This document shows positions 39,935-41,723 of a DNA stretch of 64,000 bases, piece by piece. The position numbers and the translations under genes are program-made. A model generated the notes under the pieces. The model did not search any database, had not been told where the DNA came from, and was given only the letters and a program-made list of their open reading frames with translations. The stretch spans positions 1,469,778 to 1,533,777 of the forward strand of contig NZ_CP132360.1 of the NCBI RefSeq assembly GCF_030758955.1. Direction: 5' to 3'. Origin of the DNA: Agrococcus beijingensis (lineage in GTDB: Bacteria; Actinomycetota; Actinomycetes; Actinomycetales; Microbacteriaceae). The stretch's first letter is position 1. Every line of letters begins with the position of its first letter.

Positions 39935-39947
39935 GCTCAGCACCCTA
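39932..39947 (-). promoter_or_regulatory. Leaderless YdcF promoter
   Basis: TAGGGT (39947-39942), seven bases, GTG. Confidence 0.58.
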
Positions 39948-39975
39948 CAAGCGGCGCGTCGCGCTTGCGCCGCGA

Positions 39976-39991
39976 TCGAACGTGTGTTCGA
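39976..39991. promoter_or_regulatory. LexA (SOS) box
   Basis: TCGAACGTGTGTTCGA is a perfect match to the actinobacterial SOS box TCGAAC-N4-GTTCGA. It ends 9 bases before the radical SAM start and lies in the -42 to -57 region of the divergent YdcF promoter. Confidence 0.85.
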
Positions 39992-40000
39992 ATGTCGGGC

Positions 40001-41047
40001 ATGCGATGGGAAGGCCAGACCGCGACGCACATCGACGCCGACGCCCTGCCCGGTCTCGAGGAGCGCGCGAGCGTGCTCGAGTCGTGGCCGACGCCGGGCT
40101 TCGACGGCATGTCGTTCCTCGAGATCACCGCGAAGAGCGCGCTGAACCACGTGCCGGGCGACGGCTTCATGGGCGGCACGTGGACGATCAACCCCTACCG
40201 CGGCTGCCAGCACGCGTGCCGCTACTGCTTCGCGCGCAACACCCACACCTATCTCGACCTCGACGCGGGCGCCGACTTCGACTCGCGCATCGTCGTGAAG
40301 GCCAACCTGGTCGACGTGCTGGAGCGCGAGCTCGCCGGGCCGCGGCGCGACGTGCAGGCGGTGCAGCTGGGCACGAACACCGACCCGTATCAGCGCGCCG
40401 AGGGCCGCTACCGGCTCATGCCCGGCGTGCTGCGGGCGCTCGCTCGGCACGGCGCCTCGATCTCGATCCTCACGAAGGGCACGCTGCTGCGCCGCGACCT
40501 GCCGCTCTTGGCCGAGATCGCGAAGGAGGTGCCGGTCTCGGTGGCGATGTCGATCGCGATCTTCGACGACGAGCTGCAGCAGCAGGTGGAGCCGGGCACC
40601 CCGACGACGCGCTCACGGCTCGAGACGGTTCGGGCCGTGCGCGAGGCCGGGCTCGACTGCGCCGTCTTCGCGATGCCGATCCTGCCCGGGCTCACCGACA
40701 CCCGCGCGCATCTCGAGGGCGCGTTCGCGGCGATCGCCGAGGCGGGCGCGACGAGCGCGATCGCCAGCGCCCTGCACCTGCGGCCCGGCGCGCGCGAGTG
40801 GTACACGGCCTGGCTGCGGCAGGAGCATCCGGAGCTCGTGCCGCTCTACGGCCGCGTGTACGGGGGCGGCACCTACGCGCATCCGGAGTACCGCGCGTGG
40901 TTGCGCGAGCGCATCCGCCCGCTCGTGCGCCGCCACCGGCTCGCGCCCGTGCGCACGACCGCGGGCACCGGGCTCGCCGCTCCCCCGCCGCGCGCGCGGC
41001 AGCTGCCGTCGACGAGCGAGCCGCTGCCGGCGACGACGCTGTTCTGA
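40001..41047 (+). CDS. Radical SAM protein, Rv2578c / spore-photoproduct-lyase-like family
   Basis: Iron-sulfur radical enzyme of 348 residues. The cluster motif is YRGCQHACRYCFARNTH (CxxxCxxC, near residue 70). GTNTDPYQRAEGRYRLMPG and SILTKGTLLRRDLPLL are diagnostic of the Rv2578c group. Relatives resemble SplB, which repairs DNA photoproducts; the substrate of this group is unproven. The C-terminus ends PATTLF. Start at 40001 matches the family start MRW; an in-frame ATG at 39992 touches the LexA box. SOS control is predicted from that box. It converges on the PIN toxin gene with a 2-base gap. Confidence 0.9.
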   Translation: MRWEGQTATHIDADALPGLEERASVLESWPTPGFDGMSFLEITAKSALNHVPGDGFMGGTWTINPYRGCQHACRYCFARNTHTYLDLDAGADFDSRIVVKANLVDVLERELAGPRRDVQAVQLGTNTDPYQRAEGRYRLMPGVLRALARHGASISILTKGTLLRRDLPLLAEIAKEVPVSVAMSIAIFDDELQQQVEPGTPTTRSRLETVRAVREAGLDCAVFAMPILPGLTDTRAHLEGAFAAIAEAGATSAIASALHLRPGAREWYTAWLRQEHPELVPLYGRVYGGGTYAHPEYRAWLRERIRPLVRRHRLAPVRTTAGTGLAAPPPRARQLPSTSEPLPATTLF

Positions 41048-41049
41048 GC

Positions 41050-41457
41050 TCAGACCTCGTGCGCGCGCAGTCCCCTGTGGCGCGCCGCTCTCGCGACCGC
41101 ACGGTCGGTCGTCGCGAGCTGGGCACCGAGAAGCTCTGCAGTGTGCACCACGACCGCGTCGGGCATTCGGAGGCCCGTTTCACTGCGGATGGTCGCGATC
41201 GCCGCCGCGCCGTCCGCAGAGAGCGCGATTCGTGCCACACCGAGCTGTTCGATAGCCCGCTCGGCGCGGCTCAGGATGCCTCTGCTGGCCGGGTGCGCGA
41301 GACATTCAGCGATCGTCAGCACACTCGCAGCCAGCGGCGCGGGCGCGAGACTGTTGAGGAGCTCCTCGGTTCGTGCGTGCAGCGCGTCATCCCCGTCGAG
41401 GTGCGCGATGATCACGCCGGCGTCGAGCACGACCACCGCCGGAGAGGCTTGGCTCAC
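41050..41457 (-). CDS. PIN-domain toxin (VapC-like)
   Basis: Predicted ribonuclease of 135 residues. The acidic residues of the PIN site are present: VVVLDAGVIIAHLDGDD (Asp), LTIAECLAHP (Glu), LRMPDAVVVHTA (Asp) and ATTDRAVARAA (Asp). GTG at 41457 overlaps the antitoxin stop in GTGA, the usual toxin arrangement. Another in-frame GTG at 41466 is possible. VapC toxins cleave specific tRNAs or rRNA, and the target here is unknown. The only mobile or defence-like module between the SOS gene and ligA. Confidence 0.85.
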   Translation of the reverse strand: MSQASPAVVVLDAGVIIAHLDGDDALHARTEELLNSLAPAPLAASVLTIAECLAHPASRGILSRAERAIEQLGVARIALSADGAAAIATIRSETGLRMPDAVVVHTAELLGAQLATTDRAVARAARHRGLRAHEV

Positions 41458-41723
41458 GCGGGCCACTCCGCACGCAGACGCTCGCGTTCGCCGGGCTCGT
41501 ACACGCCGGAGAGCGCGCCCGCAGTCGTACGGATTGCCTCGAGTCGCTCGGCGATCGCCTGCTCGACGGCGCTCTCAGCGTGTTCTGCGCCACGTTCGAT
41601 GAGCTTGCGCAGCAGCGCCGGCCGGTCGTCGCGCAGTTCGGGCCAGGCGCGAGCCGCGATGTCGAGCGCGTGCTCGATCGCCTCGGTCTCCGTGATGGAA
41701 TGTCGCGGCCTTGTCGTCGGCAT
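41454..41723 (-). CDS. Putative antitoxin of the PIN toxin
   Basis: Protein of 89 residues immediately upstream of and overlapping the toxin gene. It is rich in charged helical sequence (HALDIAARAWPELRDDRPA, SAVEQAIAERLEAIRTTAG) and ends YEPGERERLRAEWPA. No classical ribbon-helix-helix, AbrB or Phd signature is obvious to me, so its identity rests on position and size. The ATG at 41723 lies 6 bases after a TACACT box, leaderless. The tail would be expected to enter the toxin active site. Confidence 0.65.
   Translation of the reverse strand: MPTTRPRHSITETEAIEHALDIAARAWPELRDDRPALLRKLIERGAEHAESAVEQAIAERLEAIRTTAGALSGVYEPGERERLRAEWPA

Follow-up and report, generated by a model that had tools for sequence, protein, structure and literature searches.

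A candidate SOS-induced, clamp-recruited radical SAM enzyme of the Rv2578c family in Agrococcus beijingensis

What does a radical S-adenosylmethionine (SAM) gene do when it stands directly behind a LexA operator? The question is raised by a 64,000-nucleotide stretch of the Agrococcus beijingensis genome (the window; positions below refer to it unless a genome coordinate is given), where the LexA (SOS) box TCGAACGTGTGTTCGA occupies positions 39976–39991 of the + strand and the ATG of a radical SAM gene (40001–41047, + strand, 348 residues) begins 9 bases after it. The original prediction had read this arrangement as a perfect 16-base actinobacterial SOS box in front of an SplB-like gene of the Rv2578c group; the observation was confirmed, and the reading as a whole is supported. 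We consider it probable that the gene product, a radical SAM enzyme of the Rv2578c/PA0069 clade, is induced by the SOS response, recruited through the sliding clamp and active on a DNA lesion.

To place the box in its genomic context, the window and the genome were scanned for the actinobacterial palindrome TCGAACN4GTTCGA. Within the window, the box is the sole perfect match. With up to two mismatches allowed, 11 matches were found against a shuffle mean of 2.43; the ten others all carry two mismatches and mean little in sequence this rich in GC. The genome, a single contig of 2,892,984 bases, contains 27 sites that depart from the palindrome at no more than one position, three of them perfect; the reversed pattern, used as a control, has six such sites. 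One of the other two perfect sites directly precedes an ImuA' gene (132.6 bits with NF058630, whose cut-off is 65) and the other an ImuB-like gene (called from its IMS domain), and the opposite strand of the imuA' site is the same 16-mer as TCGAACGTGTGTTCGA. Sites with one mismatch lie upstream of lexA (genome position 1138275, with the S24 peptidase domain at 1138696) and of recA (1148401, gene named from its sequence), which identifies the motif as the LexA motif of this Agrococcus genome; the promoter region of the radical SAM gene thus contains the motif common to lexA and recA. A chance match is ruled out by the three perfect sites per genome and by the fixed place of the box in homologs.

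The long-distance conservation of LexA control, also claimed by the original prediction, was assessed on a class-level draw of 296 genomes, of which 119 carry a member over the NF038135 cut-off and 134 carry any match. This yielded 131 Actinomycetes loci (130 plus the Agrococcus gene itself, matches below the family cut-off included). Counts refer to the 122 loci with an MRW-like start; the nine left out are L100, L143, L148–L152, L157 and L158, six of which (L100, L148–L152) still show boxes with one or two mismatches. All counts are uncorrected for kinship and are inflated by near-copies. The best box in the 120 nt upstream of the start has 0, 1, 2, 3 or 4 mismatches in 19, 48, 33, 20 and 2 loci, respectively. 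Among control blocks of the same loci, two mismatches or fewer occur in 27 of 2466 taken from the gene and the region behind it, and in 17 of 1325 from farther upstream. The core GAACN4GTTC was found within 60 nt upstream of the start in 90 of the 122 loci, the Agrococcus gene included, versus 2 of 7669 control blocks, and in 88 of the 122 a box with at most two mismatches ends 7–9 nt before the start codon. The box is therefore widespread in homologs, although it is weak or missing in some close relatives of family f1 (four mismatches in L137; three in L121, L123 and L132). In a phylum-level draw, mostly from other actinobacterial classes and without control blocks, 28 of 48 loci have a box with at most two mismatches; long members, apparently with inteins, may have been searched at the wrong place, so this count is probably too low.

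LexA control extends to PA0069-type relatives, where the motif itself is different. The alphaproteobacterial LexA motif GTTCN7GTTC, on either strand, was present in 74 of 80 such loci (span −250 to +100 of the match start) versus 3 of 624 control blocks; these loci are the best 80 of 587 confirmed matches, hence near the query, and by their titles are nearly all alphaproteobacterial. Just upstream of an Aeromonas member, a CTGT-N8-ACAG site was read by eye, which we take to be the local LexA motif. Conservation of LexA control over the Actinomycetes and the PA0069-type relatives is thereby confirmed.

SOS control of SplB-like genes has been in print for other groups since at least 2012: PMC3323433 predicted that LexA regulates splB in Alpha- and Betaproteobacteria, and control of SplB-like genes was reported for Bacteroidetes, with earlier reports cited (PMC8565304). 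In Mycobacterium tuberculosis, mitomycin C induces a 'DNA repair photolyase', and the induction depends on RecA (PMC8151990), which agrees with the statement in the original prediction that Rv2578c belongs to the LexA regulon, but no locus number is given there; Rv2578c is mentioned in PMC12924846 and PMC3031603. The most direct published evidence comes from Streptomyces venezuelae, in which the radical SAM gene vnz_31145 is a LexA target by chromatin immunoprecipitation and is induced 19.97-fold by mitomycin C (PMC9380542). This gene is likely, though not proved, to be the Rv2578c ortholog SVEN_6313 of PMC12924846, so LexA binding and mitomycin C induction have been demonstrated by others for a probable ortholog; the box printed for vnz_31145 occurs in none of the loci collected here. 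In the open-licence literature searched, no paper treating PA0069 together with LexA was found, and no report of a substrate or lesion for SOS-controlled SplB-like genes. As a separate observation, the Samy prophage inserts in a Streptomyces gene of the Rv2578c family (PMC12924846); its target is probably the LexA-controlled vnz_31145 of PMC9380542, which would place a prophage inside an SOS gene.

The spacing between box and start codon suggests how repression could work. Among the 91 loci with fixed spacing, a TTGAC-like hexamer, most commonly TTGACA, starts 11 nt before the box in 59, and a TTGACA-like hexamer with up to three mismatches lies 11 or 12 nt before it in 74; the corresponding −35-like hexamer here, judged from this conserved geometry, would be TTGCGC (39965–39970, + strand). 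Directly behind the box, 70 of the 91 loci have the dinucleotide AT. With a 17-nt spacer, the −10 region would consist of the 3' arm of the box plus this AT (TCGAAT at 39988–39993, + strand), and the expected transcription start would be the start codon itself. A Shine-Dalgarno-like sequence precedes the start in only 2 of the 90 homologs with the same spacing (the Agrococcus gene not counted). Conversely, in family f25 (taken as Streptomyces) such a sequence is present in 24 of 25 members, and the core box, found in 21 of 25, mostly lies about 45 nt upstream. Because the box position is fixed and Shine-Dalgarno sequences are nearly absent, a leaderless promoter with LexA sitting on its spacer and −10 element is likely. 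An in-frame ATG abutting the box (39992–39994, + strand) is the less likely start; translation from it is disfavoured by the promoter geometry and by the family start MRW at 40001. The imuA' and imuB-like genes of the same genome have similar box-to-start spacing. When 30 imuA' loci of other genomes were examined in gene orientation, 21 had a box with at most one mismatch within the stretch scanned, and in five a long reading frame begins 7–10 nt after it, four of these five from family f1, to which the Agrococcus gene belongs. The tight geometry is thus shared by some imuA' genes of this family and is not general.

Assignment of the protein to the Rv2578c family, as originally proposed, was borne out: NCBIfam NF038135 matches with 461.3 bits (curated cut-off 430) over profile positions 1–316 of 317, and the radical SAM domain PF04055 is recognized. 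The PA0069 family model (NF033668) scores 210.8 bits, below its cut-off of 360, and the protein falls in the other branch of the tree. Its best protein matches are from Agrococcus (90% identity), and its own genome contains a single match. The CxxxCxxC motif for a [4Fe-4S] cluster, likewise noted in the original prediction, comprises C69, C73 and C76 (40205–40228, + strand) and is invariant in all 58 rows of alignment A1 and all 39 rows of alignment A4. Beyond it, the signature GTNTDPYQ (residues 124–131; 40370–40393, + strand) has G124, D128, Y130 and Q131 invariant in both alignments and contains no invariant cysteine; T158 and S184 are also invariant in both, and K159 nearly so.

The second feature that bears on function is the C-terminal tail of the family, which the original prediction had not mentioned. 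In the window protein, residues 321–348 (40961–41044, + strand) form a low-confidence tail ending ATTLF, the mean predicted local distance difference test scores of its last three blocks being 51, 43 and 49. The alignment consensus of the family ends QLxLF, and many members end QLTLL, QLSLL, QPTLF or QDALF after a variable linker rich in proline and alanine. Across the 122 Actinomycetes loci, a strict pattern, Qxx[LM][FLIM] within the last eight residues, is present in 86, and L[FLIM] within three residues of the end in 103; counted by position, 84 have Q at −5, 102 have L at −2 and 97 have F, L or I at −1, while from −10 to −6 no residue exceeds 47. The strict tail also occurs in 77 of the 80 best PA0069-type loci, in 98 of the 120 top-listed homologs of the Aeromonas member (many of these near-copies from Aeromonas, a few of them fragments) and in 29 of the 48 phylum-level loci, a set that takes in distant relatives. 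The window protein has 120 close homologs in the comparison, of which 65 have the strict tail and 117 end in LF. Both the Q and the L of the motif reach 90% conservation or more in alignment A4.

Such endings are rare elsewhere. Among 131 annotated coding sequences (of 138 in three 50-kb stretches; cut sequences and two IS3 transposases were left out), two have the strict tail, one of which is a Tsukamurella member of the Rv2578c family, leaving 1 of 130; an outgroup of nine plasmid-borne radical SAM relatives has none. On a 77-row tree scored with a looser pattern, the tail label changes 10 times against a mean of 20.2 after shuffling, and 30 of the 31 PA0069 rows carry it, the single row without it being a 45-residue fragment of L253 that is probably misplaced there. 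Some rows scored as lacking the tail end QLALPGF, presumably akin to longer clamp motifs. The published β-clamp consensus is QL[S/D]LF, usually C-terminal (PMC3716654, PMC4549789); the family at large ends in a peptide of this type, which suggests that the tail is a β-clamp-type peptide and predicts docking on the sliding clamp. The open-licence literature searched yielded no paper on a clamp motif in radical SAM or SplB-like genes; a review of archaeal proteins (PMC4929162) brings SplB-like proteins and the sliding clamp together, a paper on mycoplanecin proved unrelated, PMC8565304 does not contain the word 'clamp', and PMC12926913 contains none of 'radical SAM', 'SplB' and 'photolyase'. The clamp-type tail, a short motif but one of long conservation, is the main addition made here.

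Taken together, the operator and the tail suggest the following model. LexA bound to the box, within the promoter spacer and overlapping the −10 element, would block a leaderless transcript, and RecA-triggered cleavage of LexA would lift the block. The radical SAM barrel, related to that of spore photoproduct lyase (SPL), would generate a 5'-deoxyadenosyl radical at the [4Fe-4S] cluster, while in the family the flexible tail, through its β-clamp-type peptide, would recruit the enzyme to sliding clamps on forks that are replicating or stalled. At such forks, radical chemistry would serve to reverse or process either a damaged base or an intrastrand crosslink. The model is also favoured by the co-occurrence of the radical SAM gene with ImuA' over the class genomes and by the archaeal pairing of SplB-like genes with a possible clamp binder, both set out below. 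A clamp-type tail conserved from Actinomycetota to Alpha- and Gammaproteobacteria, combined with LexA control through unrelated motifs, points to the replisome as the family's place of action; the search for its substrate would therefore start with DNA, above all at forks, and action on a DNA lesion near the fork appears the most likely role. More broadly, and tentatively, we propose that the Rv2578c/PA0069 clade consists of widespread SOS-induced, clamp-tethered radical SAM repair enzymes. By radical chemistry, they would reverse or open a lesion that blocks replication, such as an intrastrand crosslink, on the spot, either ahead of translesion synthesis (TLS) or together with it. To our knowledge, no radical SAM enzyme has been described as clamp-bound, and such proteins would be a new kind of clamp client.

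Several observations weigh against this model. The window protein itself does not have the strict tail: ATTLF keeps the last L and F, but Q is missing and so is the L at the second position, which makes docking on the clamp less certain for this protein than for the family. On the tree, the tail is absent from several Actinomycetes lineages, among them the window protein and three other rows of its family. The motif is not exclusive to the clade either, since three of the five distant relatives of the phylum-level draw (L299–L301) have it, which may mean that the tail predates the clade, and the plasmid-borne relative L247 ends QLSFF, a near miss that represents a loose form. At the promoter, position 2 of the −10-like hexamer is not the usual A, and a strict sigma-70 scan detected no promoter at the locus, while in the actinobacterial family f56 none of six members has a box with at most two mismatches. 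A profile enriched in PA0069 members (A3) places SkfB and NifB slightly ahead of SPL when searched against the PDB. Across the 296 class genomes, 49 have the radical SAM gene over its cut-off without an over-cut-off ImuA' and 54 show the reverse. Finally, in Streptomyces ambofaciens ATCC 23877 a prophage interrupts the ortholog, from which the authors infer no significant fitness effect, and they call the repair role speculative (PMC12924846); the proposal made here, if true, would argue against that view.

Of the other explanations, one would make the protein a clamp-bound TLS accessory that aids ImuA'-ImuB-DnaE2 or other TLS polymerases and does not itself repair the lesion. The shared LexA control speaks for it, as the genome's other two perfect boxes belong to imuA' and the imuB-like gene, and so does the clamp-type tail of the family. 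Radical SAM gene and ImuA' also co-occur over the 296 genomes, with both in 70 and neither in 123 (odds ratio 3.25, p = 1.5e-6, uncorrected for kinship). However, 49 of the 119 class genomes with the radical SAM gene have no over-cut-off ImuA', and the fully conserved cluster site points to catalysis, so an accessory role is unlikely. An obligate part in the ImuA'-ImuB-DnaE2 mutasome is rejected on the 49 and 54 discordant genomes, positive as the association is. Published gene neighbourhoods tie SplB-like genes to ImuB-C domains (PMC3765255). As to the Agrococcus genome, imuA' and the imuB-like gene (L016, L309) lie about 4 kb apart, each with its own perfect box; a dnaE2-like gene is located elsewhere (genome positions 2528762–2531188), and no box with up to two mismatches was found in the stretch scanned around its start.

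Alternatively, the enzyme could modify RNA, a protein or a metabolite during the SOS response, with the tail binding a partner other than the clamp. Most radical SAM families do not act on DNA, and the window's own tail fails the strict pattern, both of which suit this explanation. It is nevertheless improbable, given a tail that fits the clamp consensus of the literature in several phyla and that control proteins seldom have, and a LexA control that is kept in groups whose LexA motifs are unrelated.

A true SPL under SOS control, reversing 5-thyminyl-5,6-dihydrothymine in dried or ultraviolet-irradiated cells, was also considered. The original prediction had noted a resemblance to SPL, which proved weak. 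The A1 profile finds only SPLs in the PDB, but the similarity is weak and local (best E = 0.0027), a single-sequence PDB search with the window protein returned no radical SAM protein (one unrelated match, E 0.42), and SkfB and NifB appear as well once the A3 profile is used. SPL needs, besides the cluster cysteines, a further cysteine as hydrogen donor and a tyrosine relay. Judged by column invariance, a fourth invariant cysteine is absent here: the next best in A1 is C220, in 42 of 58 rows, and in A4 no other cysteine reaches 30%. In 56 of 58 A1 rows and 29 of 39 A4 rows the third cluster cysteine is followed by F (by Y in the other ten A4 rows), whereas most of the SPL chains listed have Y there. 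A photoproduct role in soil bacteria has been proposed (PMC3323433), whereas an identity of 17.6% and a root-mean-square deviation above 4 Å to Bacillus subtilis SplB were reported (PMC12924846). Filing the protein as an SPL is rejected for want of the fourth invariant cysteine, and the photoproduct role is very unlikely: the enzyme resembles SPL in the cluster motif and weakly in profile, and 'SplB-like' is not to be read as 'repairs spore photoproduct'. A PADLOC scan gave no case for phage defence, its one match being a weak one to viperin around the cluster (E 0.0061).

The box lies in a short divergent intergenic region (about 39941–39991) with a DUF218 gene on the other strand, so LexA might touch the DUF218 promoter too. 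Also near the radical SAM gene are ligA, a PIN-domain gene and an amidase gene, the last taken for gatA from its sequence and from its place between apparent gatB and gatC genes. The PIN-domain gene (41050–41466, − strand) is convergent with the radical SAM gene and is possibly the toxin half of a VapBC-type pair. Elsewhere in the genome, a 115-residue reading frame of unknown kind (L017:5005–5352, − strand; genome G000 1448004–1448351) starts inside or just after the one-mismatch SOS box TCGAACATACATTCGA at 1448344, and the box at 387858 is followed by a short frame with a similar start; both are possible uncharacterised SOS genes.

Some variation within the family was also recorded. Twenty-five of the 122 Actinomycetes members exceed 450 residues (L043, L052 and L102 among them), apparently from inteins; NCBIfam holds a separate intein model, and the best stretch of the window protein to it begins at residue 76, the third cluster cysteine. 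In family f23, ten genomes (L147–L156) have a divergent copy below the family cut-off, and four of them also have a standard copy. Each divergent copy has a two-mismatch SOS box, and the five with a called start end QLSLL, QLSLI or QLTLV. On a Runella plasmid, a distant radical SAM gene (L245:1405–2253) lies between hipA-like genes and a UvrD-type helicase gene, which it overlaps by 4 bases.

Set against known systems, the preferred reading, an SOS-induced and clamp-recruited radical SAM enzyme, has partial counterparts. With SplB of Bacillus and Geobacillus (PDB 4fhc, 4k9r), the family shares the radical SAM CxxxCxxC motif and a weak profile similarity; it differs in the missing fourth invariant cysteine, in F for Y after the third cluster cysteine in most rows, and, on the side of the family, in SOS control and the clamp-type tail. 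Other Rv2578c members have the same start, cluster motif, GTNTDPYQ signature and box position, whereas the window peptide lacks the Q of the tail present in 86 of the 122 Actinomycetes loci. The PA0069 family, taken as the COG1533 'splB' of Proteobacteria, shares the core, a local LexA motif upstream and the clamp-type tail, but the window protein is below its cut-off and in a separate clade. In a number of archaea, an SplB-like gene adjoins nreB, and the PCNA motif in the NreB protein is less clear-cut; NreA, a paralog of NreB, binds PCNA and is required with UvrABC for mitomycin C repair in Haloferax volcanii, and the author of the review speculates that the SplB-like proteins of archaea might repair crosslinks of other kinds (PMC4929162). 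There, too, an SplB-like gene is linked to a possible sliding-clamp binder, but the PCNA-interacting peptide belongs to the Nre partner, whereas in the present family the radical SAM protein carries its own clamp-type motif. Finally, clamp-docked proteins such as Pol II, UmuC and transposases carry the same short, usually C-terminal QLxLF-type peptide (PMC3716654, PMC4549789), and none of these is a radical SAM enzyme; for the Rv2578c/PA0069 family, docking of this kind is predicted from the motif.

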